From Rubellimicrobium roseum (GTDB lineage: Bacteria; Pseudomonadota; Alphaproteobacteria; Rhodobacterales; Rhodobacteraceae), in assembly GCF_006152145.1 (NCBI RefSeq), contig NZ_VDFV01000030.1, positions 1-48,282 of the forward strand: 48,282 nt of DNA, given 5' to 3'. A model generated the notes under the pieces. It ran no database searches. It was given only the letters and a program-made list of their open reading frames with translations, and was not told where the DNA came from. Positions within the stretch are counted from its first letter, which is position 1. Each line of letters starts with the position of its first letter. Positions 15,243 through 34,863 of this stretch are shown in pieces. The position numbers and the translations under genes are program-made.

Positions 15243-18200
15243 ATGACTCAATCCGCCCCTGTCTCTTTTCTCATTCCTTTCCTCGCCCCCAGCGAAACGG
15301 GCCGTTGCGATCGCGAGCCCTTGGTGGAACCGGCCCGCGCGCTATCTGTGCATCAGCACGTCGCCGGTTCCCGCGAACCGGCCGGGGCAGGAACACGCGT
15401 CCGCCGGGACAAGAACCGAGAGCATCGCTTGAGCGAGCCGATCGACCGACTTCCGCCCGAGGAGGCGCTCCGCGACTCCCGGCGCATTCATGCCGAGATC
15501 ACGGGGTTTGACGCGGGCACCGACCCCTTCGTCGCGGCCGTGCGCGCGACGCGGATGCCCATGATCATCACCAACCCCCGGCTGCCCGACAATCCGGTGG
15601 TCTTCGTCAACAACGCCTTCTGTCGGCTCACCGGCTACGAGCGCGACGAGATCCTGGGCCGTAACTGCCGCTTCCTCCAGGGTCCCGACACCGATCCCGC
15701 CGCGCTGTCCCGCATCCGCGAGGCCATCGCGGCCGTCCGCTCCATCGAGATCGACATCCGCAACCACCGCAAGAACGGCGAACCCTTCTGGAATCGCCTG
15801 CTCCTCGCCCCTGTCCGCGACGCCCATGGCGATCTGGCCTACTTCTTCGCGAGCCAGGTCGACGTCACGCTGGAGCGCGAAAAGCTCGCGAGCCTCGAGT
15901 CCAGCAACGCCGCCTTGCTGGCCGAGCTCAACGGTCGACTGCGCGAGCAGCAGGCCCGCGATGAGGAACTGCGGTTCGCGCTCGACGCCGGCCGCTTCGG
16001 GGCCTGGAGCCTCGACCTCCTGAGCGGCGAGTTGACCACCTCGCCCACCTGCCGCGCGACCTTCGGCCGCGATCCCGACCAGCCCTTCGACTCCGCCGAC
16101 CTGCTGGCCGCCATCCATCCCGACGACCGCGCCGCCATGCAGGCGGCGATGGCGGCCAGCGTCGCGGACCGGACCGAGTACGACACGAGCTACCGCGTCG
16201 TCCTGCCCGACGGCGAACTCCGCTGGGTCGCCGTCCGGGGCCGCCCCCGCTACGCCGAGGACGGAACGCCCCTGCTCCTCGCCGGTGTGTCGCTCGACGT
16301 CACCGAGGCGCGCCGCGCCGAGCTGATGCGCGAGGCGCTCCTGCGGCTCAACGACGACCTGCGCGACCTCGACGATCCGGGCGACATCTCCTTCGTCGCC
16401 GGCCGCATCCTGGCCGAGACGCTGGGCGTGGACCGCGCGGGCTATGGCACCGTGGACTCCCTCACGGAAACCATCGCCATCGAGCGCGACTGGAACGCAC
16501 CGGGCGTCCGCAGCCTTGCCGGGCGGCTGCGCTTCCGCGACTTCGGCTCCTACATCGAGGAACTCCTTCGCGGCGAGACGGTCGCCTTCGCGGACGCCGA
16601 GTCCGACCCCCGCACCAGGGCCACCGCCGGGGCGCTCAAGGCGATCGGCGCCCAGGCCGTCGTCAACGTGCCGATGGTGGAGGGCGGTCGCACGGTCGCG
16701 CTCTTCTACATCAACCACGCCACGCCGCGGCGCTGGCGCCCGGATGAGATCGCCTTCCTGCGCGACGTGGCCGAGCGCACCCGCGCCACCATCGAGCGGC
16801 GCCGCGCCGAGAGCGCGCTGCGCGACGCCAACGACCGCCTGCGCTTCCTCGACGCGCTAGGGCGTGCGACGGCGACGGCTGGCGACGCCGACGCCGTCAT
16901 GGCGATCACCACCGAACGCCTGGGCCTGCATCTGGGTGCAACGATCTGCGCCTATGCCGACATGGACCCCGACGAGGACGGCTTCGACATCCGCGGCGAC
17001 TGGGCGGCGCCGGGCGCACAGAGCATCGTCGGACGCTACCGGCTCGCGGCCTTCGGGGTCGAGGCCGAGCGCGAGCTGCGCGCTGGGCGGCCGCTGGTGA
17101 TCGAGGACGCCCGCGCCGAACTCGCACCCGAGGCGGCTGCGACCTTCGAAGGCATCGGCATCCGCGCCACGATCTGCGTGCCGCTGCGGCGCGACGGGCG
17201 CCTCACGGCCCTGATGGCGGTGCACCATGCCGTGCCCCACCGCTGGACGGCTGCCGAGCGCGCGGTAATCCGCGAGGTGACGGATCGCTCTTGGGCCCAT
17301 ATCGAGCGCGCCCGCGCCGAGGCTGCGCTCCGTGCCACTGCCGATGCGCTGCGCGAGCTGAACGAAACCCTGGAGATTCGCGTGCAGGAGCGCACCCGCC
17401 AGCTCCTCGAAGCCGAGGAGGCGCTGCGCCAGAGCCAGAAGATGGAGGCGGTGGGCCAGCTCACCGGCGGGCTCGCGCACGACTTCAACAACCTCCTGAC
17501 CGGCATCGGCGGCAGCCTGGAGATGATCCGCACCCGCCTCGACCAGGGCCGCCCCGAGACGGTGGCGCGCTACCTGGGTGCCGCCGAAGGCGCGGTCAAG
17601 CGCGCGGCCTCGCTCACCCACCGCCTTCTGGCCTTCTCGCGCCGCCAGACGCTCGATCCCCGGCCCACCGACGTCAACCGTCTGGTGATGGAGATGGAGG
17701 AGCTGATCCGCCGTACCGTGGGCCCGGCGGTCGAACTGGACGTCGCAGGGGCCGGCGACCTCTGGCCCACGCTCGTCGACCCCCACCAGCTCGAGAACTC
17801 GCTCCTCAACCTCTGCATCAACGCCCGCGACGCCATGCCGGACGGCGGGCGGCTGACCATCGAAACGGCGAACCGCTGGCTCGATCCGCGGATGGCGCTG
17901 CCTCTGGACCTCGATCCCGGTCCCTATATCGCGCTCAGCGTCACCGACACCGGCACGGGCATGACGCCCGAGATCGTGGCCAAGATCTTCGATCCCTTCT
18001 TCACCACGAAACCTCTGGGGCAGGGGACCGGGCTTGGCCTGTCGATGATCTACGGCTTCGCGCGGCAGTCCGGGGGGCAGGTCCGGGTCTATTCCGAGCC
18101 GGGGCAGGGCACGACCATGACGATCTACCTGCCGCGTCACCAGCGCGCGGAGGAATCGGCCCCTGCGCCTCGCCCCGCCGCGCCCGTCCCGGGCGACGGA

Positions 18201-18563
18201 GAGGTGGTGCTGGTGATCGACGACGAGCCGATGATCCGCATGCTGATCCGCGAGGTGCTGGACGAGTCGGGCTACGGTGCGCTCGAGGCCGAGGACGGCC
18301 CCTCGGGGCTGCGCCTTCTTCAGTCGGGCGCGCGGATCGACCTGCTCATCACCGACGTGGGCCTGCCAGGTGGCCTCAACGGGCGGCAGGTGGCGGATGC
18401 GGCGCGCGTCCTGCGGCCCGACCTCCCCATCATGTTCATCACCGGCTACGCCGAGAACGCGGTGGTCGGAAACGGCCATCTCGACCGGCAGATGTCGATC
18501 GTGACCAAGCCCTTCGACATGGACCTCCTCGCCCGCCGCATCCACGCGGCGCTCCGGGGCTGA
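15243..18563 (+). CDS. LOV-PAS-GAF-GAF hybrid histidine kinase with receiver domain
   Basis: This is a 1106-residue hybrid sensor kinase without membrane segments. The N-terminal 90 residues are unassigned. A LOV domain (about 95-200) has the photoactive Cys142 in GRNCRFLQG, the hallmark of blue-light sensing through FMN. A PAS domain (about 225-335) and two GAF domains (about 370-520 and 540-690) follow. The HisKA domain has His746 in GGLAHDFNNLL; the HATPase has NLCINARDAM, DTGTGM and GTGLGLSMIYGF; the C-terminal receiver has Asp1038 in LLITDVGLP and the Lys in VTKPF. It should autophosphorylate in response to light or a GAF ligand and pass phosphate to its receiver. The output partner is not encoded next to it. 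The SRPBCC gene follows 3 nt after the stop. Confidence 0.93.
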   Translation: MTQSAPVSFLIPFLAPSETGRCDREPLVEPARALSVHQHVAGSREPAGAGTRVRRDKNREHRLSEPIDRLPPEEALRDSRRIHAEITGFDAGTDPFVAAVRATRMPMIITNPRLPDNPVVFVNNAFCRLTGYERDEILGRNCRFLQGPDTDPAALSRIREAIAAVRSIEIDIRNHRKNGEPFWNRLLLAPVRDAHGDLAYFFASQVDVTLEREKLASLESSNAALLAELNGRLREQQARDEELRFALDAGRFGAWSLDLLSGELTTSPTCRATFGRDPDQPFDSADLLAAIHPDDRAAMQAAMAASVADRTEYDTSYRVVLPDGELRWVAVRGRPRYAEDGTPLLLAGVSLDVTEARRAELMREALLRLNDDLRDLDDPGDISFVAGRILAETLGVDRAGYGTVDSLTETIAIERDWNAPGVRSLAGRLRFRDFGSYIEELLRGETVAFADAESDPRTRATAGALKAIGAQAVVNVPMVEGGRTVALFYINHATPRRWRPDEIAFLRDVAERTRATIERRRAESALRDANDRLRFLDALGRATATAGDADAVMAITTERLGLHLGATICAYADMDPDEDGFDIRGDWAAPGAQSIVGRYRLAAFGVEAERELRAGRPLVIEDARAELAPEAAATFEGIGIRATICVPLRRDGRLTALMAVHHAVPHRWTAAERAVIREVTDRSWAHIERARAEAALRATADALRELNETLEIRVQERTRQLLEAEEALRQSQKMEAVGQLTGGLAHDFNNLLTGIGGSLEMIRTRLDQGRPETVARYLGAAEGAVKRAASLTHRLLAFSRRQTLDPRPTDVNRLVMEMEELIRRTVGPAVELDVAGAGDLWPTLVDPHQLENSLLNLCINARDAMPDGGRLTIETANRWLDPRMALPLDLDPGPYIALSVTDTGTGMTPEIVAKIFDPFFTTKPLGQGTGLGLSMIYGFARQSGGQVRVYSEPGQGTTMTIYLPRHQRAEESAPAPRPAAPVPGDGEVVLVIDDEPMIRMLIREVLDESGYGALEAEDGPSGLRLLQSGARIDLLITDVGLPGGLNGRQVADAARVLRPDLPIMFITGYAENAVVGNGHLDRQMSIVTKPFDMDLLARRIHAALRG

Positions 18564-18566
18564 TCC

Positions 18567-19148
18567 ATGCCGTTTCCATCCAGCCGCTACCGGATCGTGA
18601 CCATCTGGCGCGTCGAGGCCAGCCTGGAGGAGGTGGGCGCGGTGCTGGCTGACATCGGGGGTCTGAGCACCTGGTGGCCCTCGGTCTATCTGTCGGCCGA
18701 GGAGATCGCTCCCGGCGACGCCTTGGGGGTGGGCAAGGTCGTGGCGCTCCACACGAAGGGCTGGCTGCCCTACACCCTGCGCTGGCGCTTCCGCGTGACC
18801 GAGGTCGACCCGCCCCGCCGCGTCGTGCTGGTCCCCGAGGGCGACTTCACGGGCCGCGGCACCTGGACCTTCGCGCAGGAGGGGGCCGTCGCGGTGATCC
18901 GCTACGACTGGGACGTGGAGGCGCGGAAGCCCGTCCTGCGCGCCTTGACCTGGCTCCTGCGGCCCCTGTTCACGGCCAACCACCTCTGGGCCATGCGCCA
19001 GGGCGAAGAGAGCCTGCGCCTAGAAGTCCGCCGACGCGCCGCCACCGAGACCGAGCGCGCCCGCCTCCCTCCGCCGCCCGGACCCTCGCGCCTGACCTTC
19101 AGCCGCTCCGCCCGAGCGCCAGCGATCCAAGGAACAGATGCAGCATGA
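18567..19148 (+). CDS. SRPBCC family protein
   Basis: This 193-residue protein has the helix-grip (START/polyketide cyclase-like) fold pattern: an N-terminal strand and helix (YRIVTIWRVEASLEEVGAVLADIGGLSTWWPSVY), central beta strands ending in VILVPEGD-like sequence, and a long C-terminal helix. Such proteins bind hydrophobic small molecules; the ligand here is unknown. It starts 3 nt after the LOV kinase stop and is probably co-transcribed. Its last 50 bp overlap the 3' end of the convergent PAS kinase. Confidence 0.82.
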   Translation: MPFPSSRYRIVTIWRVEASLEEVGAVLADIGGLSTWWPSVYLSAEEIAPGDALGVGKVVALHTKGWLPYTLRWRFRVTEVDPPRRVVLVPEGDFTGRGTWTFAQEGAVAVIRYDWDVEARKPVLRALTWLLRPLFTANHLWAMRQGEESLRLEVRRRAATETERARLPPPPGPSRLTFSRSARAPAIQGTDAA

Positions 19149-21315
19149 GCGGATCGAGGGGCTTGTAGAGCGTCTCGACTCCCAAGCGGCGGGCCTCGGC
19201 CAGGACCTCGGGCGTGCGGTTCGCGGTGACGAGCCGCGCGGGGACGCGCCCGAGCTTGCGCCGCAGCCGCTGGATCGCCCGCGTTCCCGTCTCGCCGTCG
19301 TCGAGCTGGAAGTCCACGAGCAGCGCATCGGGCCGGCTGTCCGGCTCCTTGACTAGGAACAGCGCCTCGTCGGCGCCACCGGCGTCCAGCACCCGGACGC
19401 CCCAGCTTTCCAGAAGAAGCGCCAGCGCCCGCCGCATGTCGCCGTCGTTCTCGATGATCAGCACGGTCAGTCCGTCATGCCGCCATTCGCCCCGGCCCGC
19501 CCGGCGCGGCTCGGCCGGCAGATGACCTGCTCGCTCGGCCAGTGGCACCGTCACGGTGAAGGCCGTGCCCCGCCCCGGCACCGAGGCCAACGTCAGCGGG
19601 TGGCCCAGCATGGCGCAGGCTCGATCTACGATGGCAAGCCCCAGTCCCAGCCCTTCGCTGGCCGAGGCGCGGCGGCCCAGGCGGTGGAACTCCTTGAACA
19701 CATTTTCCTGTTCGGCTTCAGGAATGCCGGGACCGGTGTCCCAGACCCCGAGCCGCACGCTCGATCCCATGCGTCGCGCGCCCACCAGGATGCGCCCCCG
19801 ATCCGTATAGCGGATGGCGTTGCCGAGGAGGTTCTGCAGGATGCGCTTGATGTAGGTGGGGTCCGTCGTGACTCGCAGCGTCGAGGGGCGCACCGAAAGG
19901 CGCAAGCCCTTGAGGGCTGCCGCCGGCGCGAACTCGTCGCGGAGCTGGGTGAGAAGCGCCCCCAGCTCCACCGTGCGGATGTCGGCGCTCGCGCGGCCCG
20001 ACTCGAGCTTGGAGATGTCGAGGAGCGCGCCGATGATGTCCTGCACCGAGCTGAGGGCGTTCTGCGCCTTGGTGACGACCTCGCGGTGGCCGGCCTCGGG
20101 CAGCTCCTCCTCGATGGAGGACAGGTAGAGCTTGGCGGCCGAAAGCGGCTGGAGAAGATCGTGGCTCGCGGCGGCGACGAAACGCGAGCGGCTGGCGTTC
20201 GCCCGCTCGGCCACGGCGAGCGCGTCCTCCAGCTCCAGCGTCCGCTCGGTCACGCGCGCCTCCAGCCGCTCGTTGGCCTCCGACAACGCGAGCGCTGCCT
20301 CGCGTTCGGCGCTCACGTCCGTGAGGCTCAGCACGAAGCCGCCGTCGGGGATCTCCTCGGCGAACACATCGAACCAACGGCCCTCGCCGCGCCGCAGCTC
20401 GAACCGCAGGGGCAGGCGCCCGCCGGTCCGCCGCGCCCAGGCCAGCACCTCGCGCGGGGGCAGATCGTCGCTCAGCCGCGCTTCCGACAGGAGCCGCTCC
20501 AGCACGAGGTCGAAGTCGAGTCCCACACGCAGATGCGTGAGCGGGAGCCCGATCAGAGAGGCCAGCCGCCTGTTGAACCCCGCAAGCCGTCCGCGCGGAT
20601 CGACGATGCAGACGCCCTGGTCAATGTGCTCGAGCGTGGCGCGGATCAGCCGCGCCTGGTCGTCGAGCATCCGCCCGTGCTCCTCGCGCTCGGCGCGGAT
20701 GATGTCGCTCACGTCGGTCTGCATGACCACGGTCTGCCCGGCGGCCATGCGGTGCTCGCTCACCTGCACCCAGCGCTCGCCCACCATGCGGACGTTGAAC
20801 ACGACGTGCATCTCGCCGTGGTGGCCCATGCGGTTGACCGACCATTCCTCGCGCGACATGCCGGGGGGCAGGTCGAGGAAGGCGCTGCGGCTCACGAGAT
20901 CGACATACTCGGCGAAGCCCAGCCCGGGCTTGAGCGCGTGGCGGATGTCGGGCAGGTGCATGGCGAAACGCGAGTTGCACAGCACAAGCCGGTCGTCGGG
21001 ATCGAAGAGCGCGAAGCCTTCCTGGATCGTCTCGATGGCGCCGGCGAGGTCCGAACGCGCCCGCTCCGTCTCGCGGATGGCGGCGGCCAGTCGGGCGTTC
21101 GACTCGTTGAGGAGGTCGAGCGCATGCTCCAGGTCGCGCGTGCGCTCGCGCACCTGATCCTCCAGCATCACCGCACGCTGGAACTGGCCGTAGGCCGCGC
21201 CCCGGTCGTCGTCACCCTGCTCCACGCGCTTCATCAACGCTTCGCAGATGCGCAGGAGCTTCTGGTTCTGCCGCTCGAGCGGCTCGGTCGGGTCGATCAG
21301 CGCGGCGGCGGTCAT
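19099..21315 (-). CDS. PAS-domain hybrid histidine kinase (NahK/ErcS'-like)
   Basis: This is a 738-residue soluble hybrid kinase. A coiled-coil N-terminus precedes two PAS domains (about 95-210 and 225-340; the second begins near the segment GVCIVDPRGRLAGFN). The HisKA domain has His385 in AAASHDLLQPLSAAK, the HATPase has LGNAIRYTDRG, DTGPGIP and GLGLGLAIVDRA, and the C-terminal receiver has the Asp in ALLVDFQLDDG. This domain order matches the NahK/ErcS' group. ErcS' is part of the network controlling ethanol oxidation in Pseudomonas, which fits the quinoprotein locus beside it. It lies 3 bp after the FIST gene and ends a response regulator-FIST-kinase operon. The signal sensed is unknown. 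Confidence 0.92.
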   Translation of the reverse strand: MTAAALIDPTEPLERQNQKLLRICEALMKRVEQGDDDRGAAYGQFQRAVMLEDQVRERTRDLEHALDLLNESNARLAAAIRETERARSDLAGAIETIQEGFALFDPDDRLVLCNSRFAMHLPDIRHALKPGLGFAEYVDLVSRSAFLDLPPGMSREEWSVNRMGHHGEMHVVFNVRMVGERWVQVSEHRMAAGQTVVMQTDVSDIIRAEREEHGRMLDDQARLIRATLEHIDQGVCIVDPRGRLAGFNRRLASLIGLPLTHLRVGLDFDLVLERLLSEARLSDDLPPREVLAWARRTGGRLPLRFELRRGEGRWFDVFAEEIPDGGFVLSLTDVSAEREAALALSEANERLEARVTERTLELEDALAVAERANASRSRFVAAASHDLLQPLSAAKLYLSSIEEELPEAGHREVVTKAQNALSSVQDIIGALLDISKLESGRASADIRTVELGALLTQLRDEFAPAAALKGLRLSVRPSTLRVTTDPTYIKRILQNLLGNAIRYTDRGRILVGARRMGSSVRLGVWDTGPGIPEAEQENVFKEFHRLGRRASASEGLGLGLAIVDRACAMLGHPLTLASVPGRGTAFTVTVPLAERAGHLPAEPRRAGRGEWRHDGLTVLIIENDGDMRRALALLLESWGVRVLDAGGADEALFLVKEPDSRPDALLVDFQLDDGETGTRAIQRLRRKLGRVPARLVTANRTPEVLAEARRLGVETLYKPLDPLMLHLFLGSLALGRSG

Positions 21316-21318
21316 GGG

Positions 21319-22488
21319 TCAGGCGTCGCCCGACGGCGGGAAGATGGCAACCCCGGTCATGGTCTGGTTGACGTGCATCCCGTTGATCTGCTCGCCATAG
21401 GTCGAAAAACCCACGACGCGGTTCTTGGACAGGATCGACGACAGGGCGCGGGTCTGCTGGGTCTGCTCGGCCTCCAGCCGGCGCAGGATGCAGTCGCAGG
21501 CCCAGATCGCCTCGGGCTCGCGCCCTCGGCGGATGCGCGCAAGCTCCTGCTCCAGGTGCTCGGCCATGTTGTCGGGCTCGGCCAGCGTCAGCACCAGCCC
21601 TTCGTCGATGGCCGAGAAGAACACGAGGTCGCCGTTGTCGAGAACCCGCTGGATGGCGCGGACGTGGTGGGCGCCGCCGAAGCGCACCACGACGGGATGG
21701 GCGGCGAAGGTCAGGGCCGTCAGGTCCTCGGGGTCCTTGCCCAGTACGCGGGCGTATTCGCGCGCGGCGGGCTCGGCGTTGATCTGACGGACGATGCGGC
21801 GCGTGGGTTCGGCCTCGGTGACGACCATGCGGGTGCCGGACGGGCGCAGGTGGTTCAGCGTGAAGACCTGCACCTCGCAGTCGGTGCGGATCATGCAGGC
21901 CACCGCCGCGTGGCGCATCACCTCGCCGCCCAAGGCGACATAGGTCTCGCGGAAGTGGCTGCCGTCCCCGGCCGAGCCGCCAAAGAGCGGGACCGGTCCG
22001 AGGCCCGCCGCGAGGGTGGAGACCAACTCGTCCTCGCGGACCGATAGCCCGTCCACGACGAGGAAAGCGAATTCGTTGGTCCAGCGCGGCTCGGTGGCCA
22101 CCAGCGCCGTGCGGGCGCGGATCATGTCGCCCACCAACAACTCACTGTCGAGGTCGTCGAGATTCGGCACCAGCACCGGGACCGCCACGAAGTTCCCGCG
22201 CGGCAGCCCCAGCGCCACGATGGCGCCCTCGACGTAGCCGCCCGCCCCCAACTCGCCCGCGGTGGTGCAGCCCACCACCACGCTGTCCGGATAGATCCGG
22301 GCGGCTTCGGCCATGATGGCGGCGAAATCCGCAAGTGGCGTCACGAAGAGCGCCACGAAGGCCAGGTCACGCCCCAGCGCCTCCGCGAGGCGGGGCACCG
22401 CCCCGGCTTCGTCGTGGGCAACCTGCGCCGTTCGCACCCGGGCCAAGCCGGGGTCGGGCGCAAGGCGCAGGGCCTCGCTCCTGGTCAT
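21319..22488 (-). CDS. FIST-domain signal transduction protein
   Basis: This 389-residue protein has the FIST N domain (DFAAIMAEAARIYPDSVVVGCTTAGELGAGGYVEGAIVAL) followed by the FIST C domain (ending with RVVGFSTYGEQINGMHVNQTM). FIST is a sensory module predicted to bind small ligands such as amino acids and is often encoded near kinases and regulators. The ATG at 22488 has a strong site (GGAGGA) upstream; the open frame to 22560 is not needed. It lies between the response regulator and the hybrid kinase on one strand, so it probably modulates kinase signalling. Confidence 0.93.
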   Translation of the reverse strand: MTRSEALRLAPDPGLARVRTAQVAHDEAGAVPRLAEALGRDLAFVALFVTPLADFAAIMAEAARIYPDSVVVGCTTAGELGAGGYVEGAIVALGLPRGNFVAVPVLVPNLDDLDSELLVGDMIRARTALVATEPRWTNEFAFLVVDGLSVREDELVSTLAAGLGPVPLFGGSAGDGSHFRETYVALGGEVMRHAAVACMIRTDCEVQVFTLNHLRPSGTRMVVTEAEPTRRIVRQINAEPAAREYARVLGKDPEDLTALTFAAHPVVVRFGGAHHVRAIQRVLDNGDLVFFSAIDEGLVLTLAEPDNMAEHLEQELARIRRGREPEAIWACDCILRRLEAEQTQQTRALSSILSKNRVVGFSTYGEQINGMHVNQTMTGVAIFPPSGDA

Positions 22489-22556
22489 GATCCTCCTCCC
22501 CAGGGAACCGCTTGTCGTTCTAGCTCGGTTCGCCGGGGAGCGTAGCGGCAAGGACC

Positions 22557-23252
22557 TCAATCGTGCAAGATCGTGGCGAAGCTGACTTCGCGCGCCAGCA
22601 GCACCGCCTGGGTCCGCGTCTGGACGCCCAGCTTGCGCATGATCGCGGTGACATGGGCCTTCACCGTGGCGTCAGCGATGGACAGGTCGTAGGCGATCTG
22701 CTTGTTTAGCTTGCCCTCACAGATCAGTTCCAGGATGCGCGCCTGCTGGCGGGTGAGTTGCTGGAGCCGGCGGATGACCTCCTCGGGCCCGGTGACGGGA
22801 CCTTCCTCCTCGATCACGACACCCTCAGGCACGAAAACGTGACCGGTAGCGATGCGGTCGAGTGCCCGGCGAAAGATCTCGCGCTGGCTGTGCTTGGGCA
22901 CGAAGCCCGCCGCGCCGGCCCGCAAGGTGGCCGCGATCATGCGGTGGTCGGTGATCGACGACACGACCACCACCGGCACCTCTCCGGCCGCCGCGCGCAG
23001 CCGGATCAGCCCGTCGAGCCCGCTCACGTCCGGCAGGTTGAGATCGAGCACGATGAGGTCCACCGCTTCGCCCGCCTCCAGCCGGTCGAGCGCCCCGGCC
23101 AGCGTGTCGGCCGTCTCGGTCCGGCCGATGCCGGCCACAGCGCGCAGCGTCATCGAGAGCGCATCGCAGAAGAGGGGGTGGTCGTCCACGATCAGCGCCG
23201 CCGCGAAGGTCCGGGGACGGGGAGCGAGGGGGCTGGCCAGCATGGGCGTCAT
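22557..23252 (-). CDS. LuxR-family (NarL-type) response regulator
   Basis: This is a 231-residue two-domain response regulator. The receiver domain has the acidic start LIVDDHPLFCDAL, the phosphorylated Asp in LIVLDLNLPDVSGLDG and the conserved Lys in FVPKHSQREI. The C-terminal HTH is of LuxR type (LTRQQARILELICEGKLNKQIAYDL, then IADATVKAHVTAIMRKLGVQ). It resembles the ErdR/AgmR-type regulators of PQQ alcohol dehydrogenases. It heads the regulator-FIST-kinase operon, and the kinase is the likely phosphodonor. Its DNA target may be the 7-2-7 repeats described elsewhere in this annotation, which is a hypothesis. Confidence 0.93.
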   Translation of the reverse strand: MTPMLASPLAPRPRTFAAALIVDDHPLFCDALSMTLRAVAGIGRTETADTLAGALDRLEAGEAVDLIVLDLNLPDVSGLDGLIRLRAAAGEVPVVVVSSITDHRMIAATLRAGAAGFVPKHSQREIFRRALDRIATGHVFVPEGVVIEEEGPVTGPEEVIRRLQQLTRQQARILELICEGKLNKQIAYDLSIADATVKAHVTAIMRKLGVQTRTQAVLLAREVSFATILHD

Positions 23253-23387: not shown

Positions 23388-25154
23388 TCAGCCCGCCGAG
23401 GCCAACTGCCGGGGCAGCTTGAACGTCCAGACCATGCCACCCTGGTTGAGGTAGTTCACGCGGTTGGCGACCTCGCCGCCCCAGAGCGGCACCGCGCCGC
23501 CCCAGCCCGAGACCACGGTCACGTACTGCTCGCCGTCCTGCTCCCAGGTGATGGGCTGGCCGACGATGCCCGAACCGGTCTGGAAGGACCACAGGATCTC
23601 GCCTGTCTCGTCGTCGAGCGCGATGAACTCGCCTTCGGGCGTGCCGGTGAACACGAGGCCGCCCGCCGTGGTCATGACGCCGCCCCAGAGCGGGGCCTCG
23701 TTCTTGTACTCCCACTTGATCTCGCCCGTGTCGGGGTCGATCGCCTTGAGGCTGCCGATGTGGTCCTCGAAGATCGGCTTGATGGTGAAGCCGGACCCCA
23801 GGTAGGCCGCGCCCTCGCGGTAGGTGACGGGCTCGTTCCAGATGTCCATGCCCCATTCGTTCGAGGGCACATAGAAGTTGCCGGTGCGCTGGCTGAAGGC
23901 CATGGGCATCCAGTTCTTGCCGCCCAGGAACGACGGGACGGCGAAGACGGTCTCGCCCTTCTCGCCCTCGGCCGCGGCGCTGGGATCGCCCGGACGGTTG
24001 TCCTCGACGTAGATGGGCCGGCCGGTTTCGTCGATGCCCTCGGCCCAGCTGATCTGGGACACGAAGGGCGTGGCCCGCAGGAAGGCGCCGTCCTCGCGGT
24101 TGAGGACGTAGAAGAAGCCGTTGCGGTCGGCGGTGGCCAGGCGGCCGTTCCCTTCGCGGTCAGTGTAGGCCACGACCTCGTTCACGCCGTCGAAGTCCCA
24201 GCCCTCGCGCGGGGTGGTCTGGAAGTGCCACTTGATCTCGCCGGTGGCCGGATCGATCCCCAGGCGCGAGGCGGCGTAGAGGTTGTCGCCTGCGTTGCCC
24301 TCGACAGGCGTGCCCGCGTTGCGCAGGTGGCTGTTCCAGGGCGCGGGGTTGCCGGTCCCGAAGATGAGCGTGTCGGTCTCGGCATCGTAGGAGCCGCCCA
24401 GCCAGGTCGCGCCGCCCCCGGTCCGCCACATGTCGCCCGGCCAGGTGGCGTTCAGCGTGCCGGTCATGGTCGAAGGCTGGCCGTTGAGCGTCCCCATGTG
24501 GCCCTCGATGGTGGGACGGGTCCAGACGATCTCGCCCGTCTCCACGTCGCGGGCCTGCACCTCGCCCACGATCCCGAACTCGCCGCCCGAGTTGCCGGTG
24601 ATGACGAGGTCGTTCACGATCAGCGGCGCGGCGGTGTAGCTGTAGCCCGCCTTGTAGTCCGCGATCTCCTTGTTCCAGATTACGTCGCCGGTCTTGCGGT
24701 CGAGCGCCACGAGACGGGCGTCGAGCGTGCCGAAGATCACCTTGTCGCCGTGCAGCGCGGCGCCCCGGTTCACCACGTCGCAGCAGGGCAGGATGCCTTC
24801 GGGCAGGCGGGCGTCGTACTGCCAGATCTCCTTGCCGGTGGCGATGTCGATGGCGAAGAGACGGGAGTAGGACCCGGTGACGTACATGATGCCGTCATAG
24901 ACGAGCGGCTGCGACTCCTGCCCGCGCTGCTTCTCTCCCCCCAGCGAGAAGGCCCAGGCCGGCACGAGGTTCTGCACGTTGTCCCGGTTCAGCGTCTCGA
25001 GCGGGCTGTAGCGCTGGAGCGTCTGCCCCATGCCGTTGGTCACGACGTCGCCCACGGTGGTCGCGTCGTTGGCGATGGCCTCGGCCGTGACCTGGGCCTG
25101 CGCGGCCCCGACCGCCAGAAGGCTGACCGTCGCGGCCAGCATCAAACGTCTCAT
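23388..25154 (-). CDS. PQQ-dependent alcohol dehydrogenase with lanthanide signature
   Basis: This is a 588-residue periplasmic quinoprotein (signal [20 protein letters not shown]) with the eight-bladed propeller of type I alcohol dehydrogenases. The adjacent-cysteine disulfide motif is [12 protein letters not shown], and the C-terminus ([26 protein letters not shown]) is clearly ExaA-like. The catalytic Asp320 lies in GWDFDGVNE; Asp322, two residues later, is the extra acid that marks lanthanide-dependent enzymes (XoxF, ExaF, PedH), where calcium enzymes have Ser, Thr or Ala. It should oxidise primary alcohols, passing electrons to cytochrome c-550. GGAGG precedes the ATG. Two 7-2-7 repeats lie upstream in the 344-bp gap. 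Confidence 0.95.
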
Positions 25155-25498: not shown

Positions 25499-26035
25499 TC
25501 AGAACAGGGGCGCGTACTTCCAGTTGTCGGCGTCGGGCGTGACCACGTCCAGGTCGTAACCCGAGGCCACCAGCCGCTGCGCGTCCGTCACGCCCGCCTC
25601 GGCGGCCCGGTCCACCAGAGCCCGGCCGGCCTCTTCGTCCAGCGCCGTCCCGTGCCCGCGCAACAGGTCCAGCCCATGATTGAACATCCCGATCGGATCG
25701 CCCGCCTCGGCGGCGCGGCGGTTCCACTCGGTCGACGCGTCCGGATTGGTGTCGCCGCCGAAGCCGTTGTCCTCGAGGTAGCTCATCCAGGTCATCGCGC
25801 CGGTGTAGCCGGACTCGGCGCAGGCCTCGAAGGTCTCGCGCGCGATGGCGTGCTGGCCGGACTTGGTCATCAGGTAGCCCGAGGCGCAGGTCGTCATGTC
25901 GGTCTGCCCGCGCCGGGCGTTCTCCACCATGCGGTCGAGCGTCATCTCATCGGGGTTCGTGGTCCCGTACTGGTCGAGATCCTCGGCGAGCGCCGGGGTG
26001 GCGAGGAGGATCATGGCGGTGGCGCGCAGGATCAT
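25499..26035 (-). CDS. Secreted Sel1-like repeat protein
   Basis: This 178-residue protein has a short signal (MILRATAMILLATPALA) and alpha-helical Sel1/TPR-like repeats, for example AIARETFEACAESGYTGAM, EWNRRAAEAGDPIGMFNHGL and EEAGRALVDRAAEAG. It probably acts in the periplasm as a protein-interaction module. The ATG at 26035 has AAGGAG at good spacing. It lies between the ABC permease and the dehydrogenase and is likely part of the alcohol oxidation operon. A role as assembly or partner protein is inference only. Confidence 0.82.
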   Translation of the reverse strand: MILRATAMILLATPALAEDLDQYGTTNPDEMTLDRMVENARRGQTDMTTCASGYLMTKSGQHAIARETFEACAESGYTGAMTWMSYLEDNGFGGDTNPDASTEWNRRAAEAGDPIGMFNHGLDLLRGHGTALDEEAGRALVDRAAEAGVTDAQRLVASGYDLDVVTPDADNWKYAPLF

Positions 26036-26118: not shown

Positions 26119-26910
26119 TCAGGTCTTCTGCCGCATCATCCCGCGCGCCGGGTCGTAGCCCCAGAGGGACAGGCCCAGGAACGCCGCCATCGCGAGCAGC
26201 GTCCAGCCCAGCGCGGGTCCGTTCGGCTGGGCGTAGAGCGCGAAGCGGATCAGCTCGACAGCCTGGGTGAAGGGGTTCACCGCGCAGATGTCGCGCAGGA
26301 GCTGGCTCGCCTCCTCCATGCGCCAGAGCGGGTAGAGCGCCGAGCTGAGGAAGAACATGGGAAAGATCACGAAGTTCATCACGCCCGCGAAGTTCTCGAG
26401 CTGCCGGATGAGCGAGGACAGCGCCAGCCCGAGCGCCCCCAGCATCAGCCCCGCCACGACCAGCGCGGGCAGCACCGTCAGGAAGCCCAGCGCTGGTAGC
26501 CGCACGCCCCAGAGCGCGGCGATCAGGAGGAACGCGTAGCACTGGAGCACGCCCACCGCCGTCCCGGCGAGCAGCTTGCACAGCAGGAGCCACCAGCGAG
26601 GCAGGGGTGCGGTCAGCAGGAGCCGCATGGAGCCCATCTCGCGGTCGTAGACGAGGCTGAGCGACGATTGCATGCCGTTGAACAGGAGGATCATCCCGCA
26701 AAGGCCCGGAACGATGTAGGTCTCGTACTCGATGTAGGTCGTGTAGGGCGGGGTGATCGAGAGCCCCAGCGCCGCCCGGAACCCGGCGGCGAAGACCACG
26801 AGCCAGACGAGCGGGCGGACGAGGGCGGCGAAGAAGCGGCTGCGCTGGTGCAGGAAGCGCAGGGCCTCGCGGGCGACGATGGCGCGCAGCGCGATCAGGT
26901 GGGGGCTCAT
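26119..26910 (-). CDS. ABC transporter permease, PQQ alcohol dehydrogenase-associated
   Basis: This is a 263-residue ABC-2-type permease with six hydrophobic segments (for example FFAALVRPLVWLVVFAAGF and NFVIFPMFFLSSALYPLW) and the YETYIVPGLCGMILLFNGMQ pattern of this family. It forms the membrane part of a transporter with the ATPase, whose gene overlaps its start by 4 bp (ATGA). This family is known beside PQQ alcohol dehydrogenase genes; the cargo is not established. The ATG at 26910 was chosen by the overlap and the family start. Confidence 0.92.
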   Translation of the reverse strand: MSPHLIALRAIVAREALRFLHQRSRFFAALVRPLVWLVVFAAGFRAALGLSITPPYTTYIEYETYIVPGLCGMILLFNGMQSSLSLVYDREMGSMRLLLTAPLPRWWLLLCKLLAGTAVGVLQCYAFLLIAALWGVRLPALGFLTVLPALVVAGLMLGALGLALSSLIRQLENFAGVMNFVIFPMFFLSSALYPLWRMEEASQLLRDICAVNPFTQAVELIRFALYAQPNGPALGWTLLAMAAFLGLSLWGYDPARGMMRQKT

Positions 26911-27629
26911 GCGGCGGCCCGCGTCAGATCGAGGAAGACCTGCGTGAGAGGCGCCCCGCGCGCCACGGCACCGGCGGTGGCCTGCCGCAGCACGCGGCCC
27001 TGATGCAGGATGACCAGCTCGTCCGTCGGCTCCACCTCGTCGACAAGGTGGGTGGCCCATAGGACGGTGAGGCCGTCGTCGCGCGCAAGCTGGTGCACAT
27101 GGGCGGTGATGGCGGCGCGGGCAGAGGCGTCCAGCCCCACGGTGGGCTCGTCCAGCAGCAGAACGGCCGGATCGTGCAGGAGCGCGCGGGCGATCTCGGC
27201 GCGGCGGCGGTGGCCGCCGTTGAGCGCCCGCGCCGTCTCGTTCGCGCGCTCGGCCATGCCCAGGCGGTCGAGCGCGCGTTCGATGCGGCCAGAGGCCGCG
27301 CGCCCCGACAGGCCCTGGAGGGCCGCGAAGTAGCGCAGGTTCTGCGCCACCGTGAGGTCGAGATCGAGCGTCGGCGCCTGGAACACCACGCCCATGCGCG
27401 CGAGCGCCCGCGTGGGATGGGTCCGGATGTCGTGACCCGCCACGTGCACCGCGCCCGCGGGCGCCGCCAGAAGGCCCGTGAGCAGCGCGAACAGCGTCGA
27501 CTTGCCCGCGCCGTTGGGGCCCAGCAGCGCGCAGAACCGGCCCGGCTCCACCGCAAGGCTCACCGCGTCGAGCGCCACCTTCGCGCCGTAGCGGTAGCTC
27601 AGGTCCTGGACCCGCAGGCCGGCGTCCAT
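26907..27629 (-). CDS. ABC transporter ATP-binding protein, PQQ alcohol dehydrogenase-associated
   Basis: This is a 240-residue ATPase with Walker A GPNGAGKST, the Q-loop VVFQAPTLDLDL, Walker B VLLLDEPTVGLD and the H-loop WATHLVDEV. The signature motif LSGGQ is altered to LNGGHRRRAEIARALL, which still aligns with the family. It energises the overlapping permease. Its ATG lies 2 bp after the stop of the beta-propeller gene, so the genes form one operon. Confidence 0.93.
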   Translation of the reverse strand: MDAGLRVQDLSYRYGAKVALDAVSLAVEPGRFCALLGPNGAGKSTLFALLTGLLAAPAGAVHVAGHDIRTHPTRALARMGVVFQAPTLDLDLTVAQNLRYFAALQGLSGRAASGRIERALDRLGMAERANETARALNGGHRRRAEIARALLHDPAVLLLDEPTVGLDASARAAITAHVHQLARDDGLTVLWATHLVDEVEPTDELVILHQGRVLRQATAGAVARGAPLTQVFLDLTRAAA

Positions 27630-27631
27630 GC

Positions 27632-28594
27632 TCAGGTCCCCGGCCGAAGGGCCGCGCCCCAGGGGAAGCGGCCGACCTTGATGGATTGCAGCGCCTCGCG
27701 CGAGGCCACGTCGATCACCGTCACATCCCCCGACACGCCGTTGGTGGTGAAGAGCTTCTCGCCGTTCGCATCGAAGGCCATGTGCCAGACGCGGCGGCCC
27801 ACGAGGATGTAGTCCTCGACCTCGTAGGTGGTAGCGTTCACGACGGCGACGTGGTTCGCGGGCCCCAGCGCCACGAAGACCGTTCCGTGGTCCGCCGTGA
27901 ACTCGAAGCCCACGGGCTGGATCTTGTCGGGGTGGACGCCCGCGATCTCGAAGCGGATCTTCGCGAGCTCCCCTTGCGTGGCCGTGTCGAAGACCGTCAC
28001 CGTGCCCCCGATCTCGGAGGACACCCAGAGCCGGCCGCCGTCCTCGGTGAACTCGGCGTGGCGGGGCCGGGTGTCCACGAGCGTGTTGGCGAAGGTCTCG
28101 TGCGTCGCCGTGTCGATCCAGTGGGCCATGTTGGTCGTCTCGCTCGTGGTGATGGCCACCTTGCCGTCGGGCGAGACCGCCATGCCCTCGGGCTCGATGC
28201 CCACGTCGATCTGGGCCACGACCCGGCGGCTCTCCACGTCCACCACCGTGCTGATGGCGTCATCCTCGTTGGCGATCCAGAGATGCCGGCCGTCGGGGGC
28301 CAGCGCGAACTGCTCGGGGTCCTCGCCCGAGGGAAGGTCATGGAGGATCTCGCCGGTCTCGGGGTCCATCACCTGCACGGCGTCGCTGTCCGAGGCGCAG
28401 ATGTAGACCACGCTGCCGTCATGGGCGAAGGTGATCCCGCGCGGACGTTCCCCCGTCTCGATGGTGCGGACCACCTCCAGCGTGCCGGTGTCGATGACGC
28501 TGATGGTGTCGTCCAACTCGTTCGTCACCCAGATCTCGCCCGCCCAGGCGGGGGCGGCGAGAAGGGTGGCGCAGGACAGGAGCAGGCGGCTCAT
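27632..28594 (-). CDS. YVTN-type beta-propeller protein, PQQ catabolism-associated
   Basis: This 320-residue protein has a signal peptide (MSRLLLSCATLLAAPAWAG) and repeated propeller blades (IWVTNELDDTISVIDTGTLEV, then WIANEDDAISTVVDVESR, then LFTTNGVSGDVTVIDVASR). This family is found with PQQ-dependent alcohol oxidation genes and works in the periplasm. The function is not firmly known; a role in docking or assembling the ABC or dehydrogenase system is inference. I chose the ATG at 28594 since the signal begins there. Confidence 0.9.
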   Translation of the reverse strand: MSRLLLSCATLLAAPAWAGEIWVTNELDDTISVIDTGTLEVVRTIETGERPRGITFAHDGSVVYICASDSDAVQVMDPETGEILHDLPSGEDPEQFALAPDGRHLWIANEDDAISTVVDVESRRVVAQIDVGIEPEGMAVSPDGKVAITTSETTNMAHWIDTATHETFANTLVDTRPRHAEFTEDGGRLWVSSEIGGTVTVFDTATQGELAKIRFEIAGVHPDKIQPVGFEFTADHGTVFVALGPANHVAVVNATTYEVEDYILVGRRVWHMAFDANGEKLFTTNGVSGDVTVIDVASREALQSIKVGRFPWGAALRPGT

Positions 28595-28689
28595 GGCGGG
28601 ACCTCGACATGTCATGAGGGAAGAGTCGCAGGAGAAGGTTAACAGGTCCTTCCACCACCGCGCGGTCGGGTTACCGGAAGGTTGACGCC

Positions 28690-29874
28690 TCATCCGGCCG
28701 CTCCGAAGGCCGTGCAGGCGCTTTCGGGCCGGTCGGTGCCCAGCGTGTCGAGCTCGTCCGACTGGTGCAGGAAGGGCTCGAAGGGGGCCATGCCGATCAT
28801 GGCGCGGGGGCTGACGACCGGGATCGGCTGGCGAAGCTGTCCGTCCCAGTCGCGGAAGGACAGCGCCCGCCCCTTGAAGCCGTCGAGCGCGAAGTCGGGC
28901 GACAGGAGATAGGCGCGGATCGCCTGGGGGTCGGCCGATCCCGTGCGCGTCACCGCTTCGCCCAAGCTGCGGACGGCGGCCCAGGCGGCGTAGTCCTTGG
29001 GGCGCATGGGGCGGCCCGCGAGGTCCCCGAAGCGGGACTGGAGCTGCGAGGCCCCCCAGTTCTCCAGCACGGGGGACCAGGCGACAGGCGTGATGCCCTC
29101 GGAGCCCGCGACGGGTCGCGGCTCCCAGGTGTTGAAGAGGACGTAGCGCCCGAAGTCGCCCGTCTCGTCGGCCACGAGCAGCACGTCGTGGTCGGTCAAG
29201 TCCTGCGTCAGCATCGGCACCTCGGCCTGCGCGGTGCGGCCGAGGTCCCCGTCGAAGTCCCAGGGGCGGTCGTCCTCCAGGGTCAGGCCGAACTTGGCCG
29301 TGGAGGCCCGCAGCGCCGCGCCCCAGGCCCGGTCATCGGGAAAGGGGCCTTCGAGGAGGGCCACCGAAGTCCAGCGGCGAAGCTGGAGGAACTGCGCCAG
29401 CGCGTCGGCGCGCATGGCGAGCGAGGGCAGGGCGTGCAGCACGTTCGCCCGGCAGTCGGCGCCGCGCAGCCCGTCGTCAGGGGCGCCCACGTTCAGGATC
29501 AGCGCGCCCTGCGCCTCGGGCAGGTCGGCCAGGCGCAGGAGGGCCGCCGCGGGCGCGTCCACGAGCAGGAGCCGCGAGCCGGCCAGCGCCTCGCGCGCGG
29601 CGGGCAGGAGATCCTCGCCCGGCGGCACCTCGGCGACCGACAGCACGTAGTCGTGGCCCAGGAAGCGGCCCGTGGTCGCGTTGTCGTCGCGCCCGAGCCG
29701 GGCCCCGGCGATCCCCTCGTCCTCAGGGATCGGGTCGAGGTCGGACAGCACGGGGGGACGCTCGACCTGCTGGCGCAGGTAGGCGATGGGAACCGGCATC
29801 TCCTCGGCCCCGAGCGGCGAGGAGGCGGCGAGGACGGCCCAGAGAAGGGCCGCCGCGCGGGCGGGTCGTCGCAT
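28690..29874 (-). CDS. ABC transporter substrate-binding protein, PQQ alcohol dehydrogenase-associated
   Basis: This is a 394-residue periplasmic binding protein of the Leu/Ile/Val-binding fold, with a signal sequence (MRRPARAAALLWAVLAASSPLGA). The two lobes are visible from segments such as LILNVGAPDDGL and RPWDFDGDLG, and the C-terminus is the typical YAAWAAVRSLGEAVTRTG. It matches the binding protein of the PQQ-associated ABC system; the ligand is unknown. GGGAGGAAACC precedes the ATG. It is first in the operon running to the Sel1 gene, and divergent from cytochrome c-550. Confidence 0.9.
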   Translation of the reverse strand: MRRPARAAALLWAVLAASSPLGAEEMPVPIAYLRQQVERPPVLSDLDPIPEDEGIAGARLGRDDNATTGRFLGHDYVLSVAEVPPGEDLLPAAREALAGSRLLLVDAPAAALLRLADLPEAQGALILNVGAPDDGLRGADCRANVLHALPSLAMRADALAQFLQLRRWTSVALLEGPFPDDRAWGAALRASTAKFGLTLEDDRPWDFDGDLGRTAQAEVPMLTQDLTDHDVLLVADETGDFGRYVLFNTWEPRPVAGSEGITPVAWSPVLENWGASQLQSRFGDLAGRPMRPKDYAAWAAVRSLGEAVTRTGSADPQAIRAYLLSPDFALDGFKGRALSFRDWDGQLRQPIPVVSPRAMIGMAPFEPFLHQSDELDTLGTDRPESACTAFGAAG

Positions 29875-29973: not shown

Positions 29974-30051
29974 TGGCAGCGCACCTGACCTTCCGCCATG
30001 CTTTTCCTCAACCGCGCCCCCCAAGACGGCGCCCCGAGGAGGAAGGCCCCC

Positions 30052-30741
30052 ATGACGCTCATCCGTGCCCGCTGGCCGCTCGCCGCCGGCCTTGTCGCCG
30101 TCGCGACCTTCGCGTTCGCCCATGGCGACGTGGCCCCGCAGGCGGTCAACACCGACACCCTGCCCGACGTGGGCGAGGAATGGCTGACCGAGAACCCCTA
30201 CCGCGCCATGGAGCCGGAGGTGTTCGAGGAGGCGATCCGCGTCGGCGCCTCGGGCTACAACCAGAACTGCGCGCGCTGCCACGGGCTGGAGGTGATCTCG
30301 GGCGGGCTCGCCCCCGACCTGCGCTTCCTGGAGGCCGAGGAATACGGTGACGAATGGTACGCCGAGCGGTTCCAGCACGGCATGACCCAGAACGGCATCA
30401 CCAAGATGCCCGCCTTTGGCGAGATCCTGGGCCAGAAGGCCGCCTGGGCCATCCGCTCCTACATCGAGACGCGCCCGGACGACCGGCAGGTGGCCGAGGC
30501 CGCGCCCAAGCTGACCGAGATGCGCGACAAGCTTGCCGCCCTGGCCGAGGACCCGTCGGGCGCCGACGTCGAGGCGGTCAAGGCCGAGCTGATGGAACTG
30601 AACGCGGGCTTCGAGACGCTCTCGGGCGCGCCCGTCGCCGACAGCGCGGCGGCCCACGCGGCCCGCGTGATCGACGGCAGCCCCGAGAAGTTCCACGAGG
30701 CGGCCGAGCTCATCTCCGTCTCGCTCTCGGCGGCCCAGTAG
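30052..30741 (+). CDS. Cytochrome c-550 (PedF-like)
   Basis: This is a 229-residue periplasmic cytochrome with a signal peptide (MTLIRARWPLAAGLVAVATFAFA). The heme motif CARCH is at residues 73-77 and the axial Met is in TKMPAFGEIL. It resembles the c-550 electron acceptor of PQQ alcohol dehydrogenases and should take electrons from the ExaA-type enzyme. The helical C-terminal extension (about 100 residues) has no heme motif. I chose the ATG at 30052 because GAGGAAGG precedes it and the signal starts there; an ATG at 29998 is less likely. The next gene starts 4 bp after its stop. Confidence 0.93.
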   Translation: MTLIRARWPLAAGLVAVATFAFAHGDVAPQAVNTDTLPDVGEEWLTENPYRAMEPEVFEEAIRVGASGYNQNCARCHGLEVISGGLAPDLRFLEAEEYGDEWYAERFQHGMTQNGITKMPAFGEILGQKAAWAIRSYIETRPDDRQVAEAAPKLTEMRDKLAALAEDPSGADVEAVKAELMELNAGFETLSGAPVADSAAAHAARVIDGSPEKFHEAAELISVSLSAAQ

Positions 30742-30745
30742 GCTC

Positions 30746-31648
30746 ATGCGCCGGCGCGCCTCTCTTCTTGTCCTGCTGGCGGCTCTGGGCCTGCCGGGGG
30801 CGGCCCTCGCGCGGTGCGAGGGGGTCGTGCCCGGCCAGCGGCCGCAGAACGCCGACCGCGACTTCGTGGGCGAAAGCCTCGACGACATCGTGGAGCGGGG
30901 CTGGATCGAGTTCGCCGTCTACGAGGGCCTTCCCCCCTATTCCTGGGAGGAGGGGGGCGAGCCCAAGGGTCTGGACATCGGGATCGGCCGGATCATCGCC
31001 GAGGCGCTGGGGGTGGAGCCGCGCTTCCGCTTCGTCTCCTCGGGCGAGAACCTGGAGGCGGACCTGCGCTTCAACGTCTGGCAGGGGCTGCCGATGGGGG
31101 CGGGCGAGAACGTCGTCGCCAACGTCATGCTGCACGTGCCCTACGACAGCAACTTCGCCTGCCGGGTGGAGCAGGTGGTCTTCACGGGCCAGGCCTACCA
31201 GGAGCAGGTGGCCATCGCCTACCGGAAGGACGCCTATCCCGAGAACCCGCCCACGCCCGCCTATTTCCGCTTCGACCTCGTGGCGGTGGAGAACGACACG
31301 ATCGCGGACTTCTACCTGGCGAGCTTCGCGGGCGGGCAGATGAACGCCAACATCCGGCGCTTCGCCTCGATCGAGGGGGCGGTGGAGGCCGTGAACCGGG
31401 GCGAGATTGGCGCCGCCATGGGGCCGCGCGCGCAACTGGAGGCCGCGGCGGGCGAGGGAGTGGCGGTCGCCACGCCGCCGCTGCCGGGACTGGCGATGCA
31501 CAAGTGGACGGTGGGGCTCGCGGTGCATCACGCGCACCGGGACCTCGGCTATGCGGTCGACGACGCCGTGGCGGCGGCGCTGGCCGATGGGCGGATCGCC
31601 GCCCTCTTCCAGGAGGCGGGGCTCTCGTTCACGCCGCCCGAGCGTTAG
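30746..31648 (+). CDS. XoxJ/MoxJ-like periplasmic binding protein
   Basis: This is a 300-residue substrate-binding-fold protein (family 3 type) with a signal (MRRRASLLVLLAALGLPGAALA). It has VERGWIEFAVYEGLPPYSWEEGGEPKG-type N-lobe sequence and a C-lobe ending ALADGRIAALFQEAGLSF. Proteins of this type sit next to quinoprotein dehydrogenases and are thought to help assemble or activate them; an amino acid ligand is less likely here. It is in an operon with cytochrome c-550 and is followed by a good terminator. Confidence 0.85.
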   Translation: MRRRASLLVLLAALGLPGAALARCEGVVPGQRPQNADRDFVGESLDDIVERGWIEFAVYEGLPPYSWEEGGEPKGLDIGIGRIIAEALGVEPRFRFVSSGENLEADLRFNVWQGLPMGAGENVVANVMLHVPYDSNFACRVEQVVFTGQAYQEQVAIAYRKDAYPENPPTPAYFRFDLVAVENDTIADFYLASFAGGQMNANIRRFASIEGAVEAVNRGEIGAAMGPRAQLEAAAGEGVAVATPPLPGLAMHKWTVGLAVHHAHRDLGYAVDDAVAAALADGRIAALFQEAGLSFTPPER

Positions 31649-34669: not shown

Positions 34670-34705
34670 GCGGGGCAGGATAGGAACGGCCCGCCCGCCC
34701 CGACA

Positions 34706-34721
34706 TCCGACCTTGGTCGCG
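34706..34721. promoter_or_regulatory. Candidate operator E, 7-2-7 motif
   Basis: TCCGACC-TT-GGTCGCG, containing the inverted repeat CGACC-TT-GGTCG. It lies about 45 bp upstream of the NosR-like start in the divergent promoter region shared with the aldehyde dehydrogenase. Confidence 0.5.
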
Positions 34722-34778
34722 AATCGGCGGGCCCCCAAAGCGGCTTTCCGTAACGGCAAAGAGCCGCCCAAAATCGGC

Positions 34779-34794
34779 TAAGACCTTTGTCGTG
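34779..34794. promoter_or_regulatory. Candidate operator F, 7-2-7 motif
   Basis: TAAGACC-TT-TGTCGTG. The left half matches TACGACC at 6 of 7 and the right half GGTCGTA at 5 of 7. It lies about 77 bp upstream of the aldehyde dehydrogenase ATG and 73 bp from site E. Confidence 0.45.
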
Positions 34795-34863
34795 GCTGAA
34801 ACAGCTCACCCCGCGTGTCAACGTTTGGCCGTGGCCGCGAGGAGGCGGCGCAGGGAGAAGAAC

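Follow-up and report, generated by a model that had tools for sequence, protein, structure and literature searches.

The gene found at positions 23388-25154 (minus strand) of the window, the term used here for the entire 48,282-nucleotide stretch of Rubellimicrobium roseum DNA that was analyzed, encodes a 588-amino-acid PQQ-dependent alcohol dehydrogenase of the PedH/ExaF type, as reflected in its TIGR03075 score, its matches among PDB chains and its position in a phylogenetic tree. The metal-site motif, the ligand columns, the phylogeny and the gene context are described below, as is a TIGR03075 search of the genome in which no calcium-type copy was found. By analogy with characterized relatives, the enzyme is very likely lanthanide-dependent. 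It most probably acts as a PedH/ExaF-type enzyme in which a lanthanide would be held by E192, N269, D320, D322 and PQQ, with electrons passing to PedF and a PedABC-type transporter serving the system; the identity of the metal, the catalytic steps, the substrate, the electron path and the role of the transporter are drawn from characterized relatives and from general knowledge of the family. An earlier note on this DNA had proposed a lanthanide-type enzyme at this locus and, considering the ligand columns, the tree position, the ped-type context and the lack of a calcium-type copy over the cut-off in that search, this is the best-supported reading.

Results

When compared with TIGR03075, the profile of the methanol/ethanol PQQ dehydrogenase family, the product of the 23388-25154 ORF scored 767 bits (cut-off 480). 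Together with a third-position GC content of 0.95 and the 77-91% identity, over the best segment, of the best 80 of at least 565 stretches encoding a relative in a public genome collection, this score indicates that the ORF is a real gene. As judged by eye, the N terminus of the protein resembles a signal peptide. The reverse complement of plus-strand positions 24186-24200 reads TGG GAC TTC GAC GGC and encodes WDFDG, comprising W319, D320, F321, D322 and G323 when counted from the ATG of the ORF, with the D320 codon being found at 24195-24197 and the D322 codon at 24189-24191. The two aspartates that the earlier note had assigned to this motif, Asp320 and Asp322, are present under the same residue numbers.

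The scan of the public collection, which may omit entries closely related to the window's own genome, revealed Rubellimicrobium aerolatum to offer the closest of the best 80 relatives (91% identity), and 567 plasmid records contained a match. All 80 of these relatives read TPREGWD[Y/F]DGVNE, with Tyr being present in 53 and Phe in 27, such that Asp at this motif is not a matter of chance. In the stretches covering the 80 relative loci, 63 of which extend about 8 kb to both sides, no second enzyme of the same kind was found, the sole exception being a weak 133-residue match in one locus (L142).

Comparison with PDB chain sequences showed the two PedH entries, 6zcv (822 bits) and 6zcw (816 bits), to be closest to the window enzyme, followed by Pseudomonas aeruginosa ExaA (1flg; 684 bits), with the quinohaemoprotein, methanol dehydrogenase and XoxF chains scoring at most 365 bits. 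In these alignments, PedH and ExaA both present their catalytic Asp at D320, whereas D322 coincides with the extra Asp of PedH and with a Ser in ExaA; at the D322 position, PedE has been reported to carry Ser and PedH to carry Asp (PMC5487730). When aligned end to end, WDFDGVNE is identical in PedH 6zcw, whereas ExaA 1flg reads WDFSGNNE. Two additional metal-ligand columns are occupied by E192 (24579-24581, minus strand) and N269 (24348-24350, minus strand), with Glu and Asn, respectively, appearing in each of the best 80 relatives. Adjacent cysteines are found at C124-C125 (24780-24785, minus strand), a pair whose role is described in PMC12997753.

Eight columns were inspected, namely, those of E192, N269, D320, D322, C124-C125, F409 and W558, all of which match Pseudomonas putida KT2440 PedH (6zcw) and are the same in all of the best 80 of at least 565 relatives, as well as in every one of the 19 Asp-type copies that came from the phylum sample considered below, of which the window enzyme is one. 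The 6zcv and 6zcw chains differ from one another at the F409 and W558 columns; we take these two columns to line the substrate pocket and the two residues to have been changed in 6zcv. The 6zcw entry represents PedH with a praseodymium ion (PMC11996626). By analogy with this solved homolog, D322 would lie within the metal site. In the comparison with PedH and ExaA that the earlier note had proposed as a check, Asp322 thus falls on the metal-site Asp column of PedH. An AlphaFold2 model built with 23 close sequences (mean pLDDT 69, falling below 50 at residues 317-324) adds nothing on the geometry of D322.

A phylum sample of 199 genomes was searched with an ExaA-type query at E 1e-150, with up to six candidates being scored per genome. 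In this manner, 25 copies in 20 genomes, including that of the window, passed the threshold, with Asp being present at the second position of the motif in 19 and Ser in six. Of the copies serving as anchors, L151 scored 1314 bits against ExaA 1flg, while L172 scored 1109-1114 bits against PedH. In a tree comprising 45 selected rows (37 Asp, seven Ser and one Ala), all seven Ser-type rows formed a single group (support 100/98). The window enzyme fell outside this group, among the Asp-type enzymes, where it paired with the R. aerolatum protein (100/100); this pair belongs to an alphaproteobacterial Asp group of 18 rows (100/100). Around the Ser group, the Asp-type groups came out as an open fork with respect to their branching order.

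The idea that the enzyme is an ExaA-like protein with one swap, that is, a calcium enzyme of the ExaA/PedE type with a single Ser-to-Asp change, was rejected on the basis of the PDB scores and the tree. Such a protein is hardly conceivable, even though the window enzyme shares 57% identity with an ExaA-type copy of the same family (L066): PedH scores some 130 bits above ExaA, the motif continues with VNE as in PedH rather than with the NNE of ExaA, and a swapped protein should fall within the Ser group, which excludes the window enzyme at 100/98. ExaA does share with the window enzyme the family, the catalytic Asp and the Cys pair, yet differs in presenting Ser for D322 and NNE for VNE and in belonging to a separate tree group. 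The description of the enzyme in the earlier note as otherwise ExaA-like must therefore be corrected, with the protein being PedH-like throughout (816 vs. 684 bits) and lying outside the Ser-type ExaA clade. Asp322 is, moreover, to be expected, as the enzyme is of the PedH/ExaF type as a whole. The TIGR03075 match, the extra Asp, the Glu and Asn ligands and the Cys pair are all those of PQQ-ADH type 2b, to which PedH and ExaF belong, and Asp stands where enzymes of the ExaA/PedE type present Ser, Thr or Ala. Assignment to the XoxF type is countered by the 38% identity to the XoxF protein of the same genome, by a deep split between the two in the tree and by the ped-type neighbors of the window enzyme.

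Those neighbors begin, on the minus strand and in order of position, with genes encoding a NahK/ErcS'-like hybrid histidine kinase (19099-21315; NF041831, 422 bits, cut-off 1500; NF041832, 371.5 bits, cut-off 400; Pfam matches), a NosP-like FIST-domain protein of a nitric-oxide sensor family (21319-22560; NF041558, 372 bits, cut-off 450; Pfam FIST) and an ErdR-like response regulator of the NarL/LuxR type (22557-23252; NF041830, 163 bits, cut-off 390; Pfam matches), the frame of which overlaps that of the NosP-like protein by 4 bases. These are followed by the dehydrogenase gene, hereafter pedH, and then, still on the minus strand, by genes encoding a small Sel1-like protein whose N terminus resembles a signal peptide (25499-26035, with the first ATG taken as the start; Sel1 match below the Pfam cut-off), a PedC-type ABC-2 permease (26119-27060, with the conserved part at 26140-26895; TIGR03861, 435 bits, cut-off 241), the ABC ATP-binding subunit of a PQQ-ADH system (26907-27629; TIGR03864, 344 bits, cut-off 302), a PQQ-associated beta-propeller protein (27632-28693; TIGR03866, 516 bits, cut-off 287) and the substrate-binding protein of the PQQ-ADH ABC system (28690-29751, the start being approximate; TIGR03863, 478 bits, cut-off 414). 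The open frame of this last protein extends to 30888, with the TIGR03863 match starting at its residue 381.

On the divergent side are found, in order, genes encoding cytochrome c550 PedF, the predicted electron acceptor (29998-30741, plus strand; TIGR04494, 193 bits, cut-off 122), a PedG/XoxJ-like solute-binding protein (30746-31648, plus strand; Pfam SBP_bac_3, 33 bits, cut-off 26), a NosR-like ferredoxin-type protein (32600-34771, minus strand; NF046105, 438 bits, cut-off 1000; Fer4_5), an acetaldehyde dehydrogenase of the ExaC type (34792-36381, plus strand; NF050026, 951.5 bits, cut-off 900) and a DUF779 protein. The SBP_bac_3 match and the place of its gene beside pedF suggest that the 30746-31648 product may be PedG. 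With four ABC-system families and PedF scoring over their cut-offs beside a PQQ-dependent alcohol dehydrogenase, the region presents the PedABC genes, pedF and dehydrogenase gene of a ped cluster.

The tandem arrangement of pedH followed by the regulator, NosP and NahK genes was seen in 45 of the 80 relative loci, or in 44 when counting just the 75 loci that include 4.3 kb or more of downstream sequence. Of the 75 loci with enough upstream sequence, 43 have the four ABC-system genes, in order, ahead of pedH. The tandem regulator, NosP-like and NahK-like genes after pedH suggest NO-linked control. As a separate observation, 50 of 77 usable loci show a match to the Sel1-like protein encoded between pedC and pedH in the 2.5 kb that precede pedH; in a search of 20 genomes, strong matches appeared only in five, all alphaproteobacteria and including the genome of the window, with the rest yielding weak matches or none. 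This protein itself matched no family over a cut-off. The NosR-like protein at the edge of the cluster was matched in 18 of the 80 loci, a count that is probably a lower bound, with the 8-kb flank reaching just its end.

A TIGR03075 profile search of the complete assembly (4.85 Mb in 155 contigs, 99% complete) returned two copies over the cut-off, namely, the window enzyme and a protein encoded on contig C131, both of which contain DxD, with no calcium-type paralog scoring over the cut-off. The statement in the earlier note that the window holds no calcium-type paralog is accordingly correct and, as far as this search reaches, can be extended to the assembly. The C131 protein is a XoxF (1040 bits to 6oc5), reads WDYDGVNE and, like the window enzyme, belongs to a DxD-bearing lanthanide type, in this case that of methanol dehydrogenases. 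Its gene neighbors encode a methanol-related cytochrome (TIGR03874) and then a MoxJ-type protein (TIGR03871). PqqE is also encoded in the genome (576 bits, cut-off 381). Given that XoxF is the sole other family member over the cut-off, the methanol/ethanol-type quinoproteins of this host all appear to be lanthanide-dependent. A hit on contig C75 (L003) was considered as a calcium-type paralog and rejected, being glucose-dehydrogenase-like (TIGR03074, 540 bits, below the cut-off of 833); this protein reads HHDIWDYD near the metal-site position. Across the genus, seven of eight genomes, again including that of the window, hold a TIGR03075 copy over the cut-off, and Asp is found in all 12 such loci, the window's among them. 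In one genome of the genus, an additional TIGR03075 copy (L022, G003:C84) is broken into pieces with stops.

With two lanthanide-type enzymes encoded in one genome, it is possible, albeit on the unlikely side, that growth on ethanol proceeds mainly via the C131 XoxF, leaving the PedH-type enzyme for other alcohols or aldehydes. XoxF does have the cytochrome and MoxJ-type protein as neighbors and, in the Roseobacter-group strain Marinibacterium anthonyi La 6, for which lanthanum was required for growth on ethanol, a xoxF5 mutant lost such growth (PMC5934484). The F409 and W558 columns of the window enzyme, however, match those of PedH 6zcw, and an ExaC-type acetaldehyde dehydrogenase is encoded in the same cluster as that enzyme. 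As La 6 needs lanthanum on ethanol, yet loses ethanol growth when xoxF5 is mutated, either the PedH-type enzyme or XoxF may carry ethanol growth in the host of the window.

The distribution of Asp and of Ser, Thr or Ala at the second position was considered in an evenly drawn sample of 295 genomes of the same family, nearly one per genus, using a TIGR03075 threshold of E 1e-140 or better and scoring at most four candidates per genome. The profile was matched in 89 of the 295 genomes, at no fewer than 103 places. Asp is present in 98 of the 103 places, as called by a DNA pattern in 60 (each within a listed place), by alignment in 35 and by direct reading in three (L156, L158 and L177), while the other five contain Ser (one), Ala (two) or Thr (two). 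An internal stop was seen in two of the 103. The first pattern employed had a tail that excluded the ExaA motif (NNEL) and hence gave a biased, all-Asp result; it was followed by a reading of all 103 places. The five non-Asp copies are distributed over five genomes, four of which also carry an Asp-type copy, with the fifth (G090) also having a XoxF-like fragment too short to reach the motif. In 84 of the 89 positive genomes, only Asp-type copies were found, and Asp-type-only looks like the rule in the sampled family. A calcium-type DNA pattern yielded four matches in the family, of which those in G026 and G132:C15 lie outside all listed TIGR03075 places and are probably due to chance; both Thr-type copies and one of the Ala-type copies escaped this pattern.

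PedC scored over the cut-off in 91 of the 295 family genomes, comprising 85 of the 89 enzyme-positive genomes and six of the 206 others; the four enzyme-positive genomes lacking a PedC match over the cut-off are 82, 83, 84, and 94% complete. The association between PedC and the enzyme is strong, with the statistic describing it (a Fisher p-value) ignoring relatedness. In a chosen set of 47 genomes, PedC was over the cut-off in 41. The remaining six include three Asp-type genomes (G482, G485 and G006, the last being 85% complete), which count against a strict PedC link, along with G354, the copies of which are all of the Ser or Thr type, and with G026 and G007, neither of which gave a strong TIGR03075 match. 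The use of PedC to distinguish lanthanide from calcium enzymes was rejected, since PedC cannot separate the metals when calcium-only genomes are nearly absent from the family sample.

DxD is treated as a lanthanide marker in PMC11996626, where enzymes containing it are reported in 20% of marine microbial genomes and where metal heterogeneity within type 2b is also noted. By itself, DxD is no proof of lanthanide use, as glucose dehydrogenases also carry it; a characterized membrane glucose dehydrogenase with the motif is predicted to be merely facultative for lanthanides (PMC11996626). Residue and metal are likewise not locked in the Ser direction, given that a Methylopila PedE with Ser retained 60-80% of its activity in 10 mM lanthanides (PMC10409515). 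It could be that the window enzyme is metal-promiscuous, with D322 permitting lanthanides and calcium also giving physiologically useful activity. The facultative behavior predicted for DxD-containing glucose dehydrogenases would fit such an enzyme, as would the WDYD of the glucose-dehydrogenase-like L003 and the behavior of La 6 on methanol, where this strain, described in PMC5934484 as having a single xoxF5 and no mxaF, grew with slight stimulation by lanthanum. Promiscuity is nonetheless very unlikely, considering that the columns inspected here are of the PedH type, that La 6 absolutely required lanthanum on ethanol (PMC5934484) and that PedH was inactive under the conditions of the calcium enzyme PedE, as reported in PMC5487730.

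Discussion

If the window enzyme functions as a lanthanide-dependent PedH/ExaF-type dehydrogenase, then it would be exported to the periplasm and there hold a light lanthanide by means of E192, N269, D320, D322 and PQQ. D320 would serve as the base, while the lanthanide would polarize PQQ, allowing it to accept a hydride from a short alcohol such as ethanol. Electrons would then go to cytochrome PedF (29998-30741), with the aldehyde generated being oxidized further, either by the PedH-type protein itself or by the ExaC-type dehydrogenase (34792-36381). The PedABC-type genes (26119-29751) presumably encode an ABC system of the kind reported to bring lanthanides into the cytoplasm. As to the metal itself, PedH is active with a set of lanthanides, although not with Er, Sc, Y or Yb (PMC5487730).

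Apart from the columns shared with KT2440 PedH, the window resembles P. putida KT2440 in its ped-type neighborhood, which in that species includes PedABC, PedF and NosP- and NahK-like genes (PMC12997753). The same report, which covers the PP_2663-PedS1 pair, PedA1A2BC and PedFG of P. putida, calls PedA1A2BC essential for PedH-dependent growth and states that it is missing from P. aeruginosa PAO1, where the calcium enzyme is the sole one present. KT2440 also possesses the calcium enzyme PedE and a PedS2-PedR2 switch (PMC12997753); by contrast, no calcium-type copy was detected by the TIGR03075 search of the genome of the window, where XoxF is the other family member over the cut-off. ExaF of Methylorubrum extorquens AM1, likened to the window enzyme on the basis of published descriptions, is a lanthanide ethanol dehydrogenase of PQQ-ADH type 2b (PMC11996626) with PedF- and PedG-like neighbors (PMC12997753).

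The enzyme is thus an ordinary further member of the known PedH/ExaF kind. What its genome adds is evidence that an alphaproteobacterium can carry solely lanthanide-type methanol/ethanol quinoproteins. In those genomes of the family with Asp-type copies only, alcohol oxidation by these enzymes should fail without rare earths. As the dominance of lanthanide- over calcium-type enzymes in the ocean has already been published (PMC11996626), the gain lies in a clear further case and a count rather than in a new idea. A bolder proposal, advanced here as speculation and considered improbable, is that quinoprotein alcohol oxidation in this clade is lanthanide-only, lacking both a calcium backup and a rare-earth switch, with pedH being placed under the control of an NO-sensing module comprising NosP, NahK and the regulator, which is encoded directly downstream of it. 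Were this so, rare-earth alcohol oxidation would be linked with nitric oxide or with respiration at low oxygen, with the NosR-like protein perhaps serving as an electron or sensing partner.

As regards the genus, Rubellimicrobium is listed among thermophiles in PMC7996495 and is also named there in a reference. Elsewhere in the window, positions 15243-18563 (plus strand) encode a hybrid histidine kinase of 1106 residues, in which an N-terminal match of the LOV type (blue-light) and a CckA-like kinase portion each score below the respective cut-offs, while a glucan glucosyltransferase of the MdoH family is encoded at 10127-11803 (minus strand), with a score over the cut-off.
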